The position numbers and the translations under genes were made by a program. From Alphaproteobacteria bacterium RIFCSPHIGHO2_12_FULL_66_14 (lineage in GTDB: Bacteria > Pseudomonadota > Alphaproteobacteria > Reyranellales > Reyranellaceae), in the NCBI GenBank assembly GCA_001767945.1, contig MEMN01000075.1, positions 2,948 to 38,796 of the forward strand: a stretch of DNA of 35,849 bases, read 5' to 3'. The notes under the pieces are model-generated. The model was not told where the DNA came from, did not search any database, and saw only the letters and a program-made list of their open reading frames with translations. Within the stretch, counting starts at the first letter, position 1. Each line of letters starts with the position of its first letter. Below are positions 21,582 to 30,589 of the stretch, piece by piece.

Positions 21582-24500
21582 TCAGGCGACCATGCGGTCG
21601 GCTTCCTGTAGGTCGACCGACACGAGCTGGGAGACGCCCTGCTCGGCCATGGTCACGCCATAGAGCCTGTCCATGCGCGCCATGGTGACACGATGGTGGG
21701 TGATGATCAGGAAGCGCGTGTCGGTGCGGCCGGCAATGTCCTGCACCAGGGCGCAGAAGCGCTCGACGTTCAAATCGTCCAGCGGCGCGTCCACCTCGTC
21801 CAGCACGCAGATCGGCGCCGGGTTGGTCATGAACACGGCGAACAACAGCGACAGAGCGGTCAGAGCCTGTTCACCGCCCGACAGCAGCGACATCACCTGA
21901 AGCTTCTTGCCCGGCGGGCTGGCGTGGATTTCGAGGCCGGCTTCGAGCGGGTCCTCTGATTCGGTGAGGCGCAGCTCCGCCTTGCCGCCGCCGAACAGCT
22001 TGGTGAAGAGCTGCTGAAAATGGCCGCTCACCTGCTCGAAGGCGACGAGGAAGCGCTCGCGGCCTTCGCGGTTGAGGCTCTGGATGCCCTGGCGCAGCCG
22101 GCCGATGGCGGCGACCAGATCGTCGCGCTCGGAGGTCATGCCGGTGATCTGCTGCTCGAGTTCGTTGGCTTCCTCCTCGGCCCGCAGGTTGACTGCGCCC
22201 ATGGTCTCGCGCTCGTGGACCAGACGCTCGAGACGATGCTCGGCCTTTTCAATTTCCGGCAACTCCTCCAGCGACTGGACTTCGGCCAGCGCCAGCACGC
22301 CGTCGGGCTCGCAGCGCAGCCGTTCGACGATGCGCTCAACCACGGCCTCGCGGTCCTTGGTCGCCTGCTCGACCTGGCCCTCGCGCCGCACCCGGCTTTC
22401 GCGCGCCCCGGCCAGTTCGCCCTCGGCCTGGCGTAGCGCCTTGTCGGCCTCGCCCTGCCGGGTCTCGCCGACGGCCAGCCGGTCGGCTGCCTGCTGACGG
22501 TTGACTTCGGCCTCGGCGATCTCGTCGCCCAGCGCCCCACGCTTGGTCTCGATCTCGGCGGGCTTGGCCTCGAGCTCGGCGATGGCGCCGGCGATCTGCT
22601 CGCGGCGGGCATCGAGTTCGACGATCTGGCCATCGGCGTCGGCCAGGCGCTTGCTCCAGCCGGCATGCTCCTGGGCGATCTGGCCGAGACGCTCGACACG
22701 CATCGCCGCTTCGCGGGCAAGACGGTCGCACGTGCCTTCGGCGTCGACCAGAGCGGCGCGCAGTTCGGCGATGCGGACACGCAACGTGCCGGCGGTGGCG
22801 CGGTCGGCCTGGGTGTCGGAAATCGCCGACAGCCGGGCCTCGCGGAAGGTGCGGCGCATCTCGGCATCGGCGACGTCGCCCGTGATCTCGACCTGCAACT
22901 GCTCGATGCCGGTGAGGCGCGTGCGCAGCTGGTCGGTGCGGCGCGTCACCTCCGTGTGACGATCACGCGCCGCCGTGGCGGCGCGCTCTGCAGCAGCGAC
23001 GGCGGTCTGGGCGGTCCGCTCGGCCACGCCGGTCGCTTCACTTGCGTCCTGGGTCTTGCGGCGCGCAGCGTCAGCCACGTCGCGCTCGTGCTGGCGGGCC
23101 TGCTCGACGCAGGTCCGTTCGGCATCGCGGGCGGCAGCGAGCCAGCCCGCTTCGGCATCGACGCGGGCTTGTTCGGCCGTCTGTTCGACCACGATAGCGT
23201 CGATCTGCTGGCGAAGGTCGGCCAAGCGGTTGCGCTGGCCGAGACGCACGGCGGCGGTCGACGGCGCGCCAGCACGCATCGTGTAGCCATCCCAACGCCA
23301 CACCGCGCCCTCTCGGGTGACGAGTTGCTGGCCGGGCTTGAGCGCCGCCTGCAGGGCTTCGCCAGTGGCGTCGTCGGCGACGAGACCGATGAAGGCGATG
23401 CGGCGCGCGAGCTCCGGCAGCGCCTTGACGTGGGTACCGAGCGGCGTGGCGCCTTCCGGCAGGGCCGGCGCATCGGCGAGCGGCTCCAGCGGCAGCCAAT
23501 GAACCGGCGCGCCGCGGTCGGACGACGCCTCGAGCTCGTCGCCAAAGGCGGCGCCCAGCGCCTTTTCGAAGCCGGGCTCGACGCTCAGCGCATCGAGCAG
23601 CGGCGGCCAGAGTGAGTCGGCGGCCGACTTCAGCGCCGCGGCGACGCCGGCTTCCTCGGCGCGCAGCTTGGTCAGCCGCGCGTTGGTTTTCTGCACGATC
23701 TCGGCGGCGGCGGCGTGGCTCGCTTCGGCAGCCTGGCGCTCGGCGGCGCGGGCGCGCTCCATGTCGATGCGCTCGGCCTCGGCCTTGGCCACAGCCAGAC
23801 GCGCCGCGTCCGACTCGTAGCGCGCGGCCTCGCGGGCGTTCTCGATCGCCTCCTGGCCTTCGCGCTTGGCGTCCTCGAAAGCCACGCGTGCGGCCTCGAG
23901 CGCGGCTTCGACCTCGGCCAGAGCCGGCAGGCCCGCAAGTTCGGTTTCAACCTGGCGCTGCTGTGCCGCGACTTCCTCGCTGCGGACCGCCATCCGGCGC
24001 AGGCGCTCCTGCAACTCGACGATCTCGCGGCTCACGCTCTGACGCAGCGCCTCGTCGTCGGCGATCTGCCGGGTCAGGCGGTCGTGCTCGGCTTCGGCCG
24101 TGGCGGTGTCGTCCTGGGCGGCATCGCGGGCCTGCTGTGCGGCAGCGGCGCGATCCTCCTCGCCCACCTGCTCCTGCTCCAGCCGGCCACGCTGGCCGTC
24201 GAGATCGGCAATGGCGGTTTCGGCATCGCCCTTGCGGCCACGCTCGCGCTCGAGGTCGGAATCGGTCTGCCGCAGACGGGTCTCGGCGTCTTGCTGGGCA
24301 GCCGCCACCCGCTCGGCTTCGGCGGTGAGCGCATCGTGCGCCACGCGCAGGCGCTGGAGGGCGGCGGCGGCGGCGGCTTCATCGTTGCGCAGCGGCGGCA
24401 GCGAAGTCGCGGCTTCGGCCTGCGCCGTGGTGGCAAGCCCCACCAGGCGCGTGAGATCGGCGACCTGGGCTTCGGCCTCGCGCAGGCGTTCGCCCGAATC

Positions 24501-25238
24501 GGCGAGGTCACGCTCGGCGGTGGCGAGTTTCAGCGCCAGCACCGCCGCTTCGGCGCGACGAATGTGGTCGGAGAGATTGCGATAGCGGCTGGCCTGCCGC
24601 GCCTGGCGCTTGAGGCCCTTGTGCTGCTCCTCCAGCGCCACCAGGACGTCCTGCACACGCGCCAGGTTCTGCTCGGCAGCACGCAGGCGCAGTTCGGCCT
24701 CGTGGCGGCGGGCATAGAGGCCGGTGATGCCGGCCGCTTCGTCGATGATGGTGCGGCGGTCGGCCGGCTTGGCGTTGATCAGCGCGCCGATGCGGCCCTG
24801 GCTCACCAGCGCGGTCGAGCGCGATCCCGTCGCCGAATCGGCAAACAGCGTCTGCACATCGCGGGCGCGGATCTCGCGGCCGTTCACCGAATAGGCCGAG
24901 CCATGGCCGCGCTCGATGCGGCGCACGACGTCGAGCTGGTCGGTGTCGTTCACCATGGCGGGCGCAGTGCGCGTCTTGTTGTCGAGCGTCAGCATCACCT
25001 CGGCGATGTTGCGCGCCGGACGGGTGCCGGCGCCGGCGAAGATGACGTCCTCCATCTCGCTGCCGCGCATTTGCTTGGCCGAGGTCTCGCCCATCACCCA
25101 CTTCAGGGCCTCGACAAGGTTCGACTTGCCGCAACCGTTGGGGCCGACGATGCCGGTCATGCCGGCCTCGATGGCGAGTTCCGTCGGGTCGACGAAGGAC
25201 TTGAAGCCGGAGAGCCGGAGCTTGTCGAACTGGACCAT
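21582..25238 (-). CDS. smc: Chromosome segregation ATPase SMC
   Basis: This 1218-residue protein is a full structural-maintenance-of-chromosomes ATPase. Walker A GPNGCGKS is at residues 32-39, the ABC signature LSGGEQ starts at about 1119 and Walker B ends at VLDE near 1145-1148. Two long coiled-coil arms rich in Ala, Glu, Arg and Gln flank a hinge domain at roughly 540-680. Dimers with ScpA/ScpB organise and separate newly copied chromosomes. It is the last gene of the DUF721-dsbA-dsbA-smc run, 20 bp after the nearer dsbA, and ends at a strong terminator. The scpAB genes are not in this window. The length is in the normal range. Confidence 0.98.
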   Translation of the reverse strand: MVQFDKLRLSGFKSFVDPTELAIEAGMTGIVGPNGCGKSNLVEALKWVMGETSAKQMRGSEMEDVIFAGAGTRPARNIAEVMLTLDNKTRTAPAMVNDTDQLDVVRRIERGHGSAYSVNGREIRARDVQTLFADSATGSRSTALVSQGRIGALINAKPADRRTIIDEAAGITGLYARRHEAELRLRAAEQNLARVQDVLVALEEQHKGLKRQARQASRYRNLSDHIRRAEAAVLALKLATAERDLADSGERLREAEAQVADLTRLVGLATTAQAEAATSLPPLRNDEAAAAAALQRLRVAHDALTAEAERVAAAQQDAETRLRQTDSDLERERGRKGDAETAIADLDGQRGRLEQEQVGEEDRAAAAQQARDAAQDDTATAEAEHDRLTRQIADDEALRQSVSREIVELQERLRRMAVRSEEVAAQQRQVETELAGLPALAEVEAALEAARVAFEDAKREGQEAIENAREAARYESDAARLAVAKAEAERIDMERARAAERQAAEASHAAAAEIVQKTNARLTKLRAEEAGVAAALKSAADSLWPPLLDALSVEPGFEKALGAAFGDELEASSDRGAPVHWLPLEPLADAPALPEGATPLGTHVKALPELARRIAFIGLVADDATGEALQAALKPGQQLVTREGAVWRWDGYTMRAGAPSTAAVRLGQRNRLADLRQQIDAIVVEQTAEQARVDAEAGWLAAARDAERTCVEQARQHERDVADAARRKTQDASEATGVAERTAQTAVAAAERAATAARDRHTEVTRRTDQLRTRLTGIEQLQVEITGDVADAEMRRTFREARLSAISDTQADRATAGTLRVRIAELRAALVDAEGTCDRLAREAAMRVERLGQIAQEHAGWSKRLADADGQIVELDARREQIAGAIAELEAKPAEIETKRGALGDEIAEAEVNRQQAADRLAVGETRQGEADKALRQAEGELAGARESRVRREGQVEQATKDREAVVERIVERLRCEPDGVLALAEVQSLEELPEIEKAEHRLERLVHERETMGAVNLRAEEEANELEQQITGMTSERDDLVAAIGRLRQGIQSLNREGRERFLVAFEQVSGHFQQLFTKLFGGGKAELRLTESEDPLEAGLEIHASPPGKKLQVMSLLSGGEQALTALSLLFAVFMTNPAPICVLDEVDAPLDDLNVERFCALVQDIAGRTDTRFLIITHHRVTMARMDRLYGVTMAEQGVSQLVSVDLQEADRMVA

Positions 25239-25258: not shown

Positions 25259-25918
25259 CTATTTGACGAGTTTGGCGAGTACGCCGTCGAGATCCTCGAC
25301 CGAACGCGACCCGCGATAGAGATCGCCGCCGATGAACAGGGTCGGCGTCGAATTGACGCCGAGCGCCTCGCCGCTGCGATAGTCGTTGAGCACGGCGTTC
25401 ATCATGGCGTCGTTGGCAAGGCAGGCCTTGATCTCGGCCTCGCCCAGGCCCGCGATGCGCAGCGGCTTGGCAAGTTCGGCGATCGGATCGGCGCCGGTCG
25501 CCCACTGCGGCTGGCCACGGAAGATGATGTCGAGGACACCGAAGTAGCGGTCCTTGCCGGCGCACTCGGCGATCTGGGCCGCCTTGACCGCCACCTGGTC
25601 GAGCGGAAAGTCGCGATAGACGAGCTTCACTTTGCCGGTGTCGATCCACTTCTTCTTGAGCTCGGGCAGGATCTGGGTGTGGAAGTGGGCGCAGTGCGAG
25701 CAGGTGAGCGAGGCATATTCGACGATGGTGACGGGTGCCTTGGGGTCACCCAGCACATGATCGCTCGACTGAACGGCCAACAGCGCGGACTTGTCCGGGG
25801 TCGCCGCCACGGCAACCGGCGCCGGACCCGGCGCGGGGGGGCGCGTGCCGAAATAGACGCCAGCCACGATCGCAGCCACCGCCACGGCACCGCCGGCGAC
25901 GATCAAGATATTCCGCAT
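25259..25918 (-). CDS. DsbA-family thiol:disulfide oxidoreductase, membrane-anchored or exported
   Basis: This 219-residue protein has an N-terminal hydrophobic helix (residues 4-23), a Pro-Ala-rich linker, and a DsbA/thioredoxin domain with the redox motif C73-S-H-C76 and the cis-proline loop NSTPTLFIGG. It probably introduces or shuffles disulfides in periplasmic proteins. I chose the ATG at 25918 because GAGAGGAA lies just upstream; an upstream ATG at 25954 would add 12 residues before the signal. It is 54 bp after a second DsbA gene and 20 bp before smc. The two DsbA domains share the WIDTG, FP and AAQ segments, so they look like a tandem duplication. Confidence 0.9.
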   Translation of the reverse strand: MRNILIVAGGAVAVAAIVAGVYFGTRPPAPGPAPVAVAATPDKSALLAVQSSDHVLGDPKAPVTIVEYASLTCSHCAHFHTQILPELKKKWIDTGKVKLVYRDFPLDQVAVKAAQIAECAGKDRYFGVLDIIFRGQPQWATGADPIAELAKPLRIAGLGEAEIKACLANDAMMNAVLNDYRSGEALGVNSTPTLFIGGDLYRGSRSVEDLDGVLAKLVK

Positions 25919-25972
25919 TCCGTCTTCCTCTCCACTACATCTTGGGAATTTCACCTGTGGGGAGTCAAACGA

Positions 25973-26590
25973 TTACCGCCCCACTTGGCGTAAAATTGCT
26001 GCGATGGCGTCCGAACTGCCGGGATTCAGGTAGTTTTCCTCGTTGATGAACAGGGTCGGCGTGGACGTGACCCGGAGCGCCTGGCCGGTCTGGACATCGA
26101 ACACGACTTTGTCCAAAGCGCGGTCGTTGGCGAAGCAGGCTTGGGCGTCCGCCGGGGTTACCCCCTGCGCCGCCAGGACCTTGATCATGTCGGCCTCGGG
26201 ATCGCTCCCGGTCAGCCATTCGAACTGACCGCGGAACAGGGCGTCGGCTGTGGCGAAGAATCTGTCCCGGGGCACGCATTCGGTGAGCTGGGCGGCCCGC
26301 GTGGCCACGACATCCGAGGGAAAGTGACGATGGATCAGCCGCAGGCGGCCGGTGTCGATCCATTCCTTCCGCAGCGTCGGCAGCACCCCGATGTAGAAGG
26401 TCGCGCAGTGCGGACAGGTGAACGAGTAGTAGGAAATCAGCGTATTGGGCGCGTCCGCCTTGCCCAGGATGTGATCGTCGGGCAGCGGCGCCAGCAGCTT
26501 GTCGCGCGAGAGTTCCTGGGCACCGAGGTCGTCGGCCACGAACAAGGCCCCCAGCGTCGCCGCCAGGACGCCGCGCCGGGTGAGCGCCAC
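25973..26590 (-). CDS. Possible independently translated DsbA-family protein inside the fused frame
   Basis: If translation starts at the in-frame GTG at 26590, a 205-residue exported DsbA results: ALTRRGVLAATLGALFVADD forms a twin-Arg-like signal peptide with likely cleavage after GAQ near residue 25, followed by the redox site C59-P-H-C62. This would resolve the topological oddity of a cytoplasmic DNA-related domain attached to a periplasmic oxidase. No clear Shine-Dalgarno sequence precedes the GTG, so this is a competing model to the full-length fusion and not an extra locus. Confidence 0.4.
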   Translation of the reverse strand: MALTRRGVLAATLGALFVADDLGAQELSRDKLLAPLPDDHILGKADAPNTLISYYSFTCPHCATFYIGVLPTLRKEWIDTGRLRLIHRHFPSDVVATRAAQLTECVPRDRFFATADALFRGQFEWLTGSDPEADMIKVLAAQGVTPADAQACFANDRALDKVVFDVQTGQALRVTSTPTLFINEENYLNPGSSDAIAAILRQVGR

Positions 26591-27058
26591 ACGGGCGCCG
26601 AGCCGGGTGAGCGCAGCCCGCAACTCGGGGTCCTTCACGGCCGCCGCCCGGGCCGCGACCTCGGTCACGGTCTTCGGATCGGGCTTGGGGGCCGGCGGCG
26701 GCGCGGTCGACCCCGCGATGGCGCCTTGGACAAGCCGGATATCGTCGATCATGCGGTGCCCGAAATAGGCGTTCACCCGCTCGACGATCTGGCCGGTCTG
26801 GTGCTGGACTTCCAGTGCGGCGACGCCCGAGACGCGCAGCCGCAGCAGCTTGCCGCCCCCGGTTGAGCTTCGCGCGCCGCGACCGGCCAGCAGGGCGTCG
26901 GGACGGGTGGTGCGGGCGAGGTCAGGGCCGACAATGGCCGACCATCCGGCGCGCAGGCGCGCGATCGAGGCGCCTTTGCCCCCCGTCCGATTCTGGGCGA
27001 TCCCGGAGGTGAGCCGCTGGGCCAGACCGCCGATGGCACGGAAGCCGTTTTCCCGCAT
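25973..27058 (-). CDS. DUF721 (DciA-like) domain fused in frame to a DsbA-family domain
   Basis: One uninterrupted frame of 361 codons runs from the ATG at 27058 through two normally separate proteins. Residues 1-156 are a DUF721 domain (FRAIGGLAQRLT, GWSAIVGPDLA, LRLRVSGVAALEVQHQ, IVERVNAYFG), the family that includes the DciA helicase loader. Residues from about 157 are a signal-like segment (LTRRGVLAATLGALFVADD) and a DsbA domain with C215-P-H-C218 and STPTLFINEE. AAGG lies 5 nt before the ATG; the frame is open upstream to 27205, overlapping the divergent mutY start, and those extra 49 residues are not family-like. Either a true fusion is made, or the DsbA part starts internally (GTG at 26590). 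Stop-codon loss or a sequencing error at the junction cannot be excluded. Confidence 0.65.
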   Translation of the reverse strand: MRENGFRAIGGLAQRLTSGIAQNRTGGKGASIARLRAGWSAIVGPDLARTTRPDALLAGRGARSSTGGGKLLRLRVSGVAALEVQHQTGQIVERVNAYFGHRMIDDIRLVQGAIAGSTAPPPAPKPDPKTVTEVAARAAAVKDPELRAALTRLGARVALTRRGVLAATLGALFVADDLGAQELSRDKLLAPLPDDHILGKADAPNTLISYYSFTCPHCATFYIGVLPTLRKEWIDTGRLRLIHRHFPSDVVATRAAQLTECVPRDRFFATADALFRGQFEWLTGSDPEADMIKVLAAQGVTPADAQACFANDRALDKVVFDVQTGQALRVTSTPTLFINEENYLNPGSSDAIAAILRQVGR

Positions 27059-27116: not shown

Positions 27117-28172
27117 ATGACCATGACCCACGCCCCGCTTCTGCTCACCTGGTACGACCGACATCGTCGCACCCTGCCGTGGCGTGCGCCCTCGGGGGAG
27201 CGCACCCCGCCCTATCTCGTGTGGCTGTCGGAGATCATGCTGCAGCAGACCACCGTGGCCACGGTCGGCGACTATTACCGCCGTTTCGTCGAGCGCTGGC
27301 CCACCGTCGAGGCGCTCGCCGCCGCCCCGCTCGATGACGTGCTCTCGGCCTGGGCCGGCCTCGGCTATTACGCCCGCGCCCGCAATCTTCATGCCTGCGC
27401 CCAGGCCGTGGCAGACAAGCGCGGCGGCCGCTTCCCCGAGGATGAGGCCGCTTTGCGCGCACTCCCCGGCATCGGCCCCTATACGGCGGCCGCCATCCGC
27501 GCGATCGCCTTCGACCACAAAGCCTCGGCGGTCGACGGCAATGTCGAGCGCGTGATCGCCCGCCTGCAGGCGATCGAAACGCCGCTGCCCGATGCCAAGA
27601 TCGAAATCCATGCCCGCGCCGCCGAGCTGGTGCCCGAAGACCGCGCCGGCGACTACGCCCAGGCGATGATGGATCTCGGCGCCACGGTCTGCACGCCGCG
27701 CAAGCCGCTCTGCGTCATCTGCCCGCTCAGCCGAAGCTGCCGCGCACTAAAACTCGGCATCGCCGAGACTTTGCCGCGACGTTCTCCGAAAGCCGAGAAA
27801 CCGACCCGTCGCGGCCTCGCCTTCGTGCTGGCCCGCAAGGACGGCGCCATCCTGCTGCGCAAGCGGCCGACCAAGGGCCTTTTGGGCGGCATGGACGAGG
27901 TGCCGTCGAGCCCGTGGCGCGAGGGCAAATTCGTGGCGGCCGACGCGCTCAGCGACGCACCGGTGCCGGCGCGCTGGACGATCCTGGACGGGCTGGTCCG
28001 CCACACTTTTACGCATTTTCATCTCGAGCTCAGCGTCGCCCGCGCCACCGCCACCACCGACCGCCTGGCCCGGCTCCTGCCCGGCAGCGCCTGGTGCACC
28101 CTCGATCTCCTCGACGACCGCGCGCTCCCCACCGTCATGCGCAAGGTGATCGAAAAGGCCAGCCTGGCCTGA
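27117..28172 (+). CDS. mutY: A/G-specific adenine DNA glycosylase MutY
   Basis: This 351-residue repair enzyme removes adenine mispaired with 8-oxoguanine. Catalytic residues are E39 (SEIMLQQT) and D140 (VDGNVERVI), with the helix-hairpin-helix at LPGIGPYTAAAI (116-127). The iron-sulfur cluster ligands are C192, C199, C202 and C208. The C-terminal NUDIX-like 8-oxoG-recognition domain (about 230-345) contains RHTFTHFHLEL. It diverges from the DUF721 frame across 58 bp. Two close ATGs (27117 and 27123) are possible starts. A hairpin follows the stop directly. Confidence 0.97.
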   Translation: MTMTHAPLLLTWYDRHRRTLPWRAPSGERTPPYLVWLSEIMLQQTTVATVGDYYRRFVERWPTVEALAAAPLDDVLSAWAGLGYYARARNLHACAQAVADKRGGRFPEDEAALRALPGIGPYTAAAIRAIAFDHKASAVDGNVERVIARLQAIETPLPDAKIEIHARAAELVPEDRAGDYAQAMMDLGATVCTPRKPLCVICPLSRSCRALKLGIAETLPRRSPKAEKPTRRGLAFVLARKDGAILLRKRPTKGLLGGMDEVPSSPWREGKFVAADALSDAPVPARWTILDGLVRHTFTHFHLELSVARATATTDRLARLLPGSAWCTLDLLDDRALPTVMRKVIEKASLA

Positions 28173-28483: not shown

Positions 28484-28666
28484 CTAGATGAGGTTGGGTT
28501 TCGGCAGGCTGGTGGGGAGGATCTCGATCACCGAGTAGCCGTCCCGCTCGAGCGAAACCGCCTGAAGCTGGGCTTCCTTGAGGGTCGAGTAGGCGATGCC
28601 GATGCGGCGGCCGCCCTTGGGCTTTTCAACCCAGACCATATGCTTGCCGATTGCGGTTGTTGTCAT
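28484..28666 (-). CDS. Small protein of unknown function, 60 aa
   Basis: Starting from the ATG at 28666 (AGGG 6-9 nt upstream) this gene gives 60 residues. The sequence has a regular alternation (HMVWVEKPKGGRRIGIAYST, LKEAQLQAVSLERDGYSV, IEILPTSLPKPN) that resembles a compact alpha/beta fold with two strands around a central helix. No signal or membrane segment is present. I do not recognise a family. An upstream ATG at 28696 would add ten residues, but they fall outside the regular pattern. It diverges from the TetR gene across 115 bp. Confidence 0.6.
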   Translation of the reverse strand: MTTTAIGKHMVWVEKPKGGRRIGIAYSTLKEAQLQAVSLERDGYSVIEILPTSLPKPNLI

Positions 28667-28745
28667 GGCGGACCCTATACAGGCAAACGCCGGCATTAGC
28701 GAACACTCGATAGTTGGCTCCCAAACCAGTCAATTCTCATCCGTC

Positions 28746-28773
28746 TTGACAAAAAATGAATTTGAATTCATTT
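28746..28773 (+). promoter_or_regulatory. Promoter and AT-rich palindromic operator of the TetR/Rieske operon
   Basis: TTGACA, a consensus -35 box, is at 28746-28751. Immediately after it lies a perfect 9-bp inverted repeat, AAATGAATT-TG-AATTCATTT (28754-28773), which would cover the spacer and the -10 region. The TetR start codon is at 28782, only 30 bp from the -35 box, so the transcript would have almost no leader. This is a natural TetR autorepression site; binding is inferred. Confidence 0.6.
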
Positions 28774-28781
28774 CTTTACAC

Positions 28782-29411
28782 ATGGCCTACCGGCGCACCG
28801 AACGGGTCCAGGAGCAGCTTCAGGACAAGCGCGACCGCATCCTGCAGGCGGTCCGCGCGGTCGTGAGCGAGGTCGGCTTCCGCGGCGCCCAGGTCGCGAC
28901 CGTGGCCGAGGCGGCGGGAGTGGCGACCGGCACGATCTACCGGCATTTCCCATCCAAGGGCGAGTTGTTCGCCGAGGCGCTGGCCCTGAACGCGGGCCAC
29001 GAAGTGAGCGTCATGCAGGCCGTGGCCGACAGCGAGGGAACGGCCACGGCACGGCTCGCCGACGCGGTGCGCGTGTTCGCGCTCCGCGCCATGCGGGCAC
29101 GGCGGCTGGCCTGGGCGATGATCGCCGAACCGGCCGAGCCCGAAGTCGACGCGGCCCGCCTGAAATCCCGCCGCGCCTTCGCCGATGTGCTGCAAGGCCT
29201 GATCGAGGACGGCATCGCGCGCGCCGAGTTCCCGCCGCAGAACGCCCGCATCGCCGCCGCCGGCCTGATCGGCGCCCTGACCGAGGGACTGATCGGCCCC
29301 CTGGCGCAGGATGCGGAGGCGCCGCCCAACGCTCTGTCCTTGTCGCGCGAGATCACCGCCTTCTGCCTGCAGGCCGTCTCCGCCCGTCCTTATGAGGAGT
29401 CCCGCTCATGA
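28782..29411 (+). CDS. TetR-family transcriptional repressor
   Basis: This 209-residue protein has an N-terminal TetR DNA-binding domain, HTH around residues 36-58 (AQVATVAEAAGVATGTIYRHFPSKGEL split over helices 2-4), and a helical ligand-binding C-terminal domain. The frame is open further upstream, but the ATG at 28782 is chosen because the family starts a few residues before the first helix and because the operator and -35 box lie just before it. The stop overlaps the start of the oxygenase gene (ATGA). It probably represses this two-gene operon until an aromatic or toxic ligand binds. The ligand is unknown. Confidence 0.92.
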   Translation: MAYRRTERVQEQLQDKRDRILQAVRAVVSEVGFRGAQVATVAEAAGVATGTIYRHFPSKGELFAEALALNAGHEVSVMQAVADSEGTATARLADAVRVFALRAMRARRLAWAMIAEPAEPEVDAARLKSRRAFADVLQGLIEDGIARAEFPPQNARIAAAGLIGALTEGLIGPLAQDAEAPPNALSLSREITAFCLQAVSARPYEESRS

Positions 29412-30589
29412 CCATGACCGACGCCGCGGCTCCCGCCTCTACGGTTCCTCATTGGCAGCCCCTGTTCCAACGCCTGCTCGGAGAGATCGACGGGCGCACC
29501 AGCCCCGACTGGCAGGCCGACGAGGCCGGTCTCGATCCCGCCCTCTACATCGACCCAACGCGCTTCGCGCGCGAGCGCGAACGCCTGTTCCGCCGGATGC
29601 CGCTCTGCCTCGGTCCCGTCGACCAGCTCCGCGAGCCCGGCAGCGCGATGGCGCGCGAGATCTGCGGCGTGCCCGTGCTGATCACGCGCTCGCGCGAAGG
29701 GCACGTGAAAGTGTTCCTGAATGTCTGCCGTCATCGCGGCGCGCGGCTGATCGCGGGCGACGGCGAACCTTGCCGACGCCAGAGCCTGGTCTGCCCCTAT
29801 CACGGCTGGACCTACCGCCTCGACGGCTCGCTGGCCGGCCTGCCGCGCGCCGAGGCTTTCCCGACGGTCGACAAGCACACGCTCGGGCTGCGCGAGCTGC
29901 CGTCAGCCGTGCGCCACGGCATGATCTGGGCGGTGCTCGATCCCGCCGCCTCAGCGCCCGACATGGCGGCGTTCCTGGGCCCGCTCGACGGCGACCTCGC
30001 GGCGATCGGTCTCGGCGGCCATCGCCTCTATCGCCAGCACGCCATCAAGCGCGCCGCCAACTGGAAGCTGATCGTGGAAGCTTTCCTCGAGATCTATCAT
30101 CTGACGCGCCTTCACGCCGGCACGATCGGGCCATTTTTCGCCGACGCAGTCTCGGTGAGCGACGCGGTGGGCCCGCACATCCGCTTCCTCGCGGCGCGCG
30201 AACGCACGGCCGATATCCGCGAACTGCCGCCCGAGCGCTGGAGCCCGCAGCATCACGGCACGCTGGTGCACTTCGTGATGCCCAGCAGCATCTTCATCTA
30301 CCATCCCGACTACATCAGCCATCTTGGCCTGTTCCCGAGCGCGCCGGACGAGACGCTGTTCGTGCATTCCATGCTGACGCCGGACATTCCCGAGGACGAC
30401 AAGACGGCGATGCACTGGGCCCGCTCGTTCGAGCTGATCGACGGCGGCGTCTTCAACAGCGAGGATCTGCCGACCTGCGAGCAGATCCAGCGCGGCATGG
30501 GCAGCGGCGCCAACGAGCGGCTGATCGTGGGCCGGCTGGAGCAGAACCTGCGGCGGTTTCACGCCAATTTGGACGCGGCGTTGGATTAG
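29408..30589 (+). CDS. Rieske non-heme iron aromatic ring-hydroxylating oxygenase, alpha subunit
   Basis: This 393-residue protein has a Rieske [2Fe-2S] domain with C107-x-H109 and C129-x2-H132 (CRHRGARL and CPYHGW). The catalytic domain has the mononuclear iron ligands H231 and H236, with the bridging acid E228 in LEIYHLTRLH where many family members have Asp. D353 is a candidate third ligand. The family activates O2 to hydroxylate or demethylate aromatic or quaternary-ammonium substrates. No beta subunit, ferredoxin or reductase gene is adjacent, so it may be an alpha-only oxygenase using a reductase encoded elsewhere. It overlaps the TetR gene by 4 bp. Confidence 0.92.
   Translation: MTMTDAAAPASTVPHWQPLFQRLLGEIDGRTSPDWQADEAGLDPALYIDPTRFARERERLFRRMPLCLGPVDQLREPGSAMAREICGVPVLITRSREGHVKVFLNVCRHRGARLIAGDGEPCRRQSLVCPYHGWTYRLDGSLAGLPRAEAFPTVDKHTLGLRELPSAVRHGMIWAVLDPAASAPDMAAFLGPLDGDLAAIGLGGHRLYRQHAIKRAANWKLIVEAFLEIYHLTRLHAGTIGPFFADAVSVSDAVGPHIRFLAARERTADIRELPPERWSPQHHGTLVHFVMPSSIFIYHPDYISHLGLFPSAPDETLFVHSMLTPDIPEDDKTAMHWARSFELIDGGVFNSEDLPTCEQIQRGMGSGANERLIVGRLEQNLRRFHANLDAALD

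Follow-up and report, generated by a model that had tools for sequence, protein, structure and literature searches.

DciA, a helicase loader found widely among bacteria, is reported to be essential in diverse model organisms (PMC12547741), and in Alphaproteobacteria the genes for proteins with its domain (PF05258) are described as located between mutY and trx-smc (PMC5109545). In the case of Caulobacter crescentus DciA, changes of L163, L167 and L170 are reported to weaken the binding to DnaB, the L167S and L170S proteins to be functionally impaired in vivo despite normal protein levels, and the variants without residues 170-179 to be also defective (PMC9825169). The Reyranella protein herein described carries L146, L150 and L153 at the same spacing as Caulobacter L163/L167/L170 (PMC9825169). 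The two proteins also share the DUF721 domain, the gene order mutY - dciA - thioredoxin gene - smc, and the C-terminal LxxxLxxL element, but the Caulobacter protein consists of 179 residues and stops 9 residues after the third leucine, whereas the Reyranella chain continues via a predicted signal peptide into DsbA.

Production of two proteins from a single gene via an internal signal sequence is known for Bradyrhizobium fbcH, of which the cytochrome b/c1 precursor is cut by signal peptidase. The products of fbcH are membrane partners of one complex, whereas one of the Reyranella products would be a cytoplasmic helicase loader. Tat signals are characterized by an arginine pair, by lower hydrophobicity together with a higher glycine content, and by a basic c-region (PMC5539426), and Tat segments away from the N terminus are known in the actinobacterial polytopic Rieske proteins (PMC7317946; PMC5449189). 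As described in these two sources, the Rieske proteins resemble the fused protein in carrying a Tat-type signal away from the N terminus and a preceding chain that is not exported by that signal, but the preceding parts are membrane helices inserted by Sec in the Rieske proteins and a soluble DNA-replication protein in Reyranella (PMC7317946; PMC5449189).

The window, i.e. the whole stretch of 35,849 nucleotides analysed here, includes the features listed in Table 1. As the preliminary description had claimed, the DUF721 and DsbA domains are located in a single stop-free frame (361 codons, with matches to PF05258 and PF13462). No NCBIfam model scored above its own cut-off for the fused protein. 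Given the mutY and trx-smc placement stated in PMC5109545, the order of genes is the usual alphaproteobacterial one, and the missing boundary alone is odd. Four features are added here to that description: the DnaB-binding tail abuts the signal, the fused gene carries the only DciA of the genome, a second and separate dsbA lies next to it, and the fusion marks a clade. Beyond mutY (28596-30589), a frame for a TetR-type regulator and the alpha subunit of a Rieske ring-hydroxylating oxygenase were noted.

Table 1. Features of the dciA-dsbA locus (positions within the window)
Feature	Position	Strand	Evidence or remark
dciA-dsbA fused gene	27058 (ATG) to 25973 (stop end)	minus	361 aa, 38.6 kDa, without internal stop
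DciA (DUF721) domain	residues 16-109; 26732..27013	minus	Pfam PF05258, E 3.5e-12, 46.8 bits (cut-off 24)
DsbA-type thioredoxin domain	residues 194-356; 25991..26479	minus	Pfam PF13462 (Thioredoxin_4), E 3.2e-31; active site C215-P-H-C218
DnaB-binding motif LxxxLxxL (predicted, from Caulobacter spacing)	L146, L150, L153; 26600..26623	minus	
Tat-like internal signal peptide (predicted)	R161 to A180; 26519..26578	minus	RR and AQ conservation
Probable signal peptidase I cut, A180/Q181 (predicted)	26516..26521	minus	small residue at -1; A180 and Q181 invariant in 42/42 aligned rows
Second, separate dsbA (dsbA2)	25259..25954	minus	PF13462, E 2.7e-41; probable start ATG ~25918 (MRNILIV...)
smc	21582..25238	minus	PF02463 SMC_N, E 9.7e-58
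mutY	27117..28172	plus, divergent from fused gene	PF00730 and PF14815 NUDIX_4

A total of 65 Reyranella genomes were searched, and in 59 of these the junction is read through in a single stop-free frame, including four (G029, G033, G010 and G007) with loci that are partial, as we interpret because of contig ends, and still span the junction. The remaining six (G006, G009, G013, G032, G338 and G348) gave neither a junction match nor a PF05258 DciA match; these may reflect assembly gaps, although G032 and G009 are rated 92 and 95% complete. The open frame is not due to chance, being shared by 59 of the 65 genomes with no stop in any, while the other six are without any DciA match. Outside Reyranella, the fusion is also present in genus g227, represented by a single genome (G357). 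The three other genera of the family comprise nine genomes, of which two (G326 and G359) were without a usable locus, and dciA and dsbA are separated by a stop in all seven genomes in which both domains were found (G222, G358, G360, G324, G325, G327 and G328). The genes are also separate in the one genome from another family of the same order (G037). By scanning of GTDB contigs, in which the nearest named relatives of the window belong to Reyranella, 47 loci were obtained, of which 45 are fused, some ending at the contig end, and two (L077 and L078) gave a match confined to the DsbA part. The fused records include R. massiliensis 521, R. soli, R. aquatilis, and Enhydrobacter aerosaccus ATCC 27094; Enhydrobacter stands outside Reyranellaceae according to NCBI, but the genome with the same coordinates (G011) is classed in the same genus here.

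The preliminary description had proposed alignment of the junction with relatives, and in this alignment the stop is absent throughout the genus wherever the locus was found. The lost stop codon suggested there as one explanation is contradicted, as a sequencing error or private mutation, by the genus-wide fusion, but is right in effect as an old, fixed loss, since the related genera have the stop between the two genes. Loss of the stop by an indel or miscall in sequencing or assembly would be conceivable in a draft assembly of 242 contigs such as that of the window, but the frame is equally open in 59 Reyranella genomes, among them named assemblies that carry no MAG label, which makes the chance of such an artefact practically negligible, and a sequencing error or private stop loss was thereby ruled out. 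The fusion is real, clade-wide and marks a clade, and these genetic facts are firm. On the tree of DciA, built from a chosen subset of rows, the 26 fused rows included formed one clade (SH-aLRT 99), and a single origin of the fusion is therefore likely.

The search with PF05258 gave exactly one match per genome for the 59 fused Reyranella genomes, always inside the fused frame, and no second stand-alone DciA was detected by this search in the 65 genomes of the genus. DnaB, DsbB and signal peptidase I were all found in the window's own genome. The PF01695 (DnaC/IstB) model gave three short partial matches in the same genome, one of them over the cut-off (27.8 bits), but is not specific because it also matches 13 of 14 control genomes; the partial matches are tentatively read as other AAA proteins rather than a DnaC-type loader. 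The LxxxLxxL motif is present in all 50 distinct fused frames, and its leucines are invariant in the 42-row alignment. In the AlphaFold model (42 rows), the DciA half gave pLDDT of about 30-67, and with this low confidence the model is silent on the packing of the tail or its position by the membrane.

The order of elements around the junction is the same in the 50 distinct fused frames: a DPxLRAALxRLG-like stretch, 5-10 residues, the arginine pair, 19-23 residues, and AQ. The spacer between the DPxLRAALxRLG-like stretch and the arginine pair is six residues in 38 frames, five in nine, and 9-10 in three. Among 40 distinct tails of unfused DciA caught by a pattern, which missed four further tails, LxxxLxxL was found in 37, with the end at a median of 11.5 residues past the third leucine, and a dibasic pair occurs within the first ten residues after the motif in 12. 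The DciA of genus g26 ends with LTRR, LGRR or SRRKG, its RR being located five residues past LG, compared with mostly five or six residues in the fused proteins. From this likeness of the tails, the end of DciA may itself have turned into the n-region of the signal, but dibasic tails are common (12/40) and coincidence is possible.

The dN/dS ratio, as estimated from 142 related pairs that are not independent of each other, was 0.12 for DciA (residues 1-112), 0.40 for the linker, 0.099 for the DnaB motif, 0.205 for residues 155-165, 0.235 for the signal (residues 157-181), 0.41 for the stretch after the signal, and 0.204 for DsbA. With use of 19 disjoint pairs, pN/pS for the same segments, in the same order, was 0.15, 0.35, 0.13, 0.27, 0.23, 0.37 and 0.17, giving a similar picture. 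Purifying selection runs across the junction.

The arginine pair is RR in 49 and RH in one of the 50 distinct fused frames, and the residue two positions after it is hydrophobic (V in 22, F in 12, L in eight, A in six, M in one, and I in one). The AQ pair is present in all 50, and a basic residue was found among the four residues before Q, the span scored by the script, in 42, the copy in the DNA studied here being one of the eight without it. TatC was found in 30 of the 31 genus genomes searched. Altogether these features favour Tat over Sec as the predicted route of DsbA export. The choice is not settled, however, because the hydrophobicity of the h-region is just slightly below that at the beginning of the downstream DsbA: the best 12-residue hydropathy was 2.34 for the fused signal versus 2.64 for the downstream DsbA start (45 found), with overlapping spreads. 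The fused signal is located about 160 residues inside the chain, away from the N-terminal position typical of Tat substrates. It is unlikely that the signal stays uncleaved as the permanent anchor of a type II membrane protein, in which one chain could physically link helicase loading and the redox state of the envelope. Such a single chain would agree with the purifying selection through the junction and with the finding that neither a stop nor a common start parts the two domains, but AQ is invariant, with A at -1 as in a cut site, and the hydrophobic stretch is short and glycine-rich, unlike a typical anchor.

A nested-start gene had also been suggested, with a possible GTG start at 26590. 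This GTG is present, in frame, and corresponds to codon 157, but it is common to close relatives only, several of which keep a GTG 2-4 codons ahead of the arginine pair. In the 18 codons that lead to the arginine pair, ATG, GTG and TTG are all absent from 27 of the 50 distinct fused frames, and the other 23 have at least one; up to the AQ pair, seven frames are without such codons, and over a shorter span, beginning with the DnaB motif and closing with the late hydrophobic stretch, eight. Start candidates past the arginine pair would lead to its loss. The mean of Shine-Dalgarno-like pairing with the 16S tail was -4.3 for the internal candidates (n=90). This value is closer to the -3.4 of random coding positions (n=500) than to the -7.9 of the downstream dsbA start (n=46), and the start of dciA is intermediate at -5.6 (n=45). 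A conserved nested start was thus rejected as the general mechanism, because 27 of the 50 frames are without any of the three codons ahead of the arginine pair. Two proteins could still be made from one frame if an internal start, at GTG 26590 or at a non-standard codon, added a second product, a pre-DsbA carrying a signal peptide of its own. Initiation at GTG 26590 would yield an ordinary 22.4-kDa pre-DsbA beginning with VALTRRGVLAATLG, and the GTG kept by several close relatives agrees with this; internal initiation in the close relatives of the window, or from rare starts such as CTG or ATT, is possible. As the account of the fused gene it is nevertheless quite improbable in view of the start-free frames and the weak pairing, and even if an internal start were used, translation from the first start would run through anyway.

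The DsbA half retains the TP loop and, apart from CAGC in L076 and CPFC or CPYC in some frames, the CPHC active site, and C215, C218, T333 and P334 are invariant in the 42-row alignment. AlphaFold gave pLDDT over 90 across most of the DsbA domain, and the best fold match was Wolbachia alpha-DsbA1 (3f4s; E 3.9e-15), the nearest solved sequences also being those of 3f4r and 3f4s. The fused half thus resembles alphaproteobacterial DsbA in the thioredoxin fold with CPHC, the exported-type signal and the place downstream of dciA, but differs from it in having no clade-wide start of its own and in being translated as the C-terminal part of DciA. This DsbA part might have no role outside and serve as a cytoplasmic thioredoxin-like partner of DciA, given that DciA works in the cytoplasm and that a separate dsbA adjoins. 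Such a role is very unlikely, because the export signal and the AQ pair are kept across the clade and the fold is nearest to that of alphaproteobacterial DsbA.

The reading to which the evidence points, and which we consider probable, is a true fixed fusion that gives one precursor, from which DsbA is exported, probably by Tat, and cleaved off, while DciA stays cytoplasmic and keeps the signal peptide as a membrane tail. The ribosome would make a single 38.6-kDa precursor, of which the N-terminal DciA part would remain cytoplasmic. The internal signal, consisting of the arginine pair and the glycine-rich hydrophobic stretch, would carry DsbA across the inner membrane, and the cleavage by signal peptidase I after A180 would release a 20-kDa periplasmic DsbA. 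An 18.6-kDa DciA with the signal peptide as a C-terminal tail would be left over, and the sole recognised helicase loader would at first be tethered to the membrane, with its DnaB-binding helix just inside, and perhaps be trimmed later, DnaB being loaded by either the tethered or the trimmed form. This order of parts agrees with the N-in, signal, C-out fusion once regarded as topologically odd, which is the surviving reading after refutation of the lost-stop error and rejection of the nested start as a general mechanism, although its topology is predicted.

It is a tentative and rather doubtful extension of this model that Reyranella DciA is an obligatory by-product of export, being delivered to the membrane by the DsbA signal, keeping the tail, and loading DnaB at or after its release from the membrane; if true, the export capacity or the redox state of the envelope could set the supply of the helicase loader. 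A clade in which the sole recognised DciA forms the N-terminal half of an enzyme predicted to be exported calls into question the view that the loader diffuses freely through the cytoplasm, and lends itself to asking, in a natural setting, if the loading of the helicase can tolerate, or makes use of, attachment to the membrane. If the export reading is true, the signal peptide would act, unusually for a natural protein, about 160 residues into a chain that begins as a soluble protein of the cytoplasm, and one short tail would serve as both the helicase-binding element and the n-region of the export signal. A search of the literature outside subscription papers and preprints gave no report pairing DciA with DsbA, DUF721 with thioredoxin, or Reyranella with DsbA, and, among the papers listed, none of a membrane-anchored DciA.

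With respect to the origin of the fused dsbA, two tandem DsbA-type genes are present at the Reyranella locus and one at the same place in the related genera. On the free tree, which was constructed with chosen subsets of rows (18 of 58 fused, 16 of 57 downstream, 7 of 7 related-genus and 34 of 48 outgroup), the downstream DsbA grouped with the single DsbA of the related genera (SH-aLRT 94) and the fused DsbA stood apart (support 69). A tree in which the fused and downstream copies were joined scored better, however, by 10.5 log units (AU p 0.65). The fused DsbA, an additional copy beside the ordinary dsbA, arose either just before the fusion or earlier.

Among the matches listed for 289 genomes of the class, no DciA-DsbA fusion arising independently elsewhere in Alphaproteobacteria was seen: a full-length stop-free match was found only in three genomes, all of Reyranella, and the matches of three genomes (G095, G059 and G040) extend across both domains but contain one or two stops. 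Of 77 loci compared (L080-L156), in which the outgroup loci are the best-scoring ones plus 18 picked for long open frames and not a random sample, 71 include both domains according to the filter applied, 47 as separate genes (one place being counted twice, as L080 and L107) and 24 in fused form, all 24 from the genus or g227. In two of the loci, from two distant families (L083 in G059 and L097 in G313), dciA and dsbA are in the same frame with one stop codon between them, and fusion by a single stop loss would therefore be easy. In another locus (L099 in G040), the DsbA frame is in phase with the preceding dciA but parted from it by stops, and its start region contains a lipoprotein-like LLAGC stretch.
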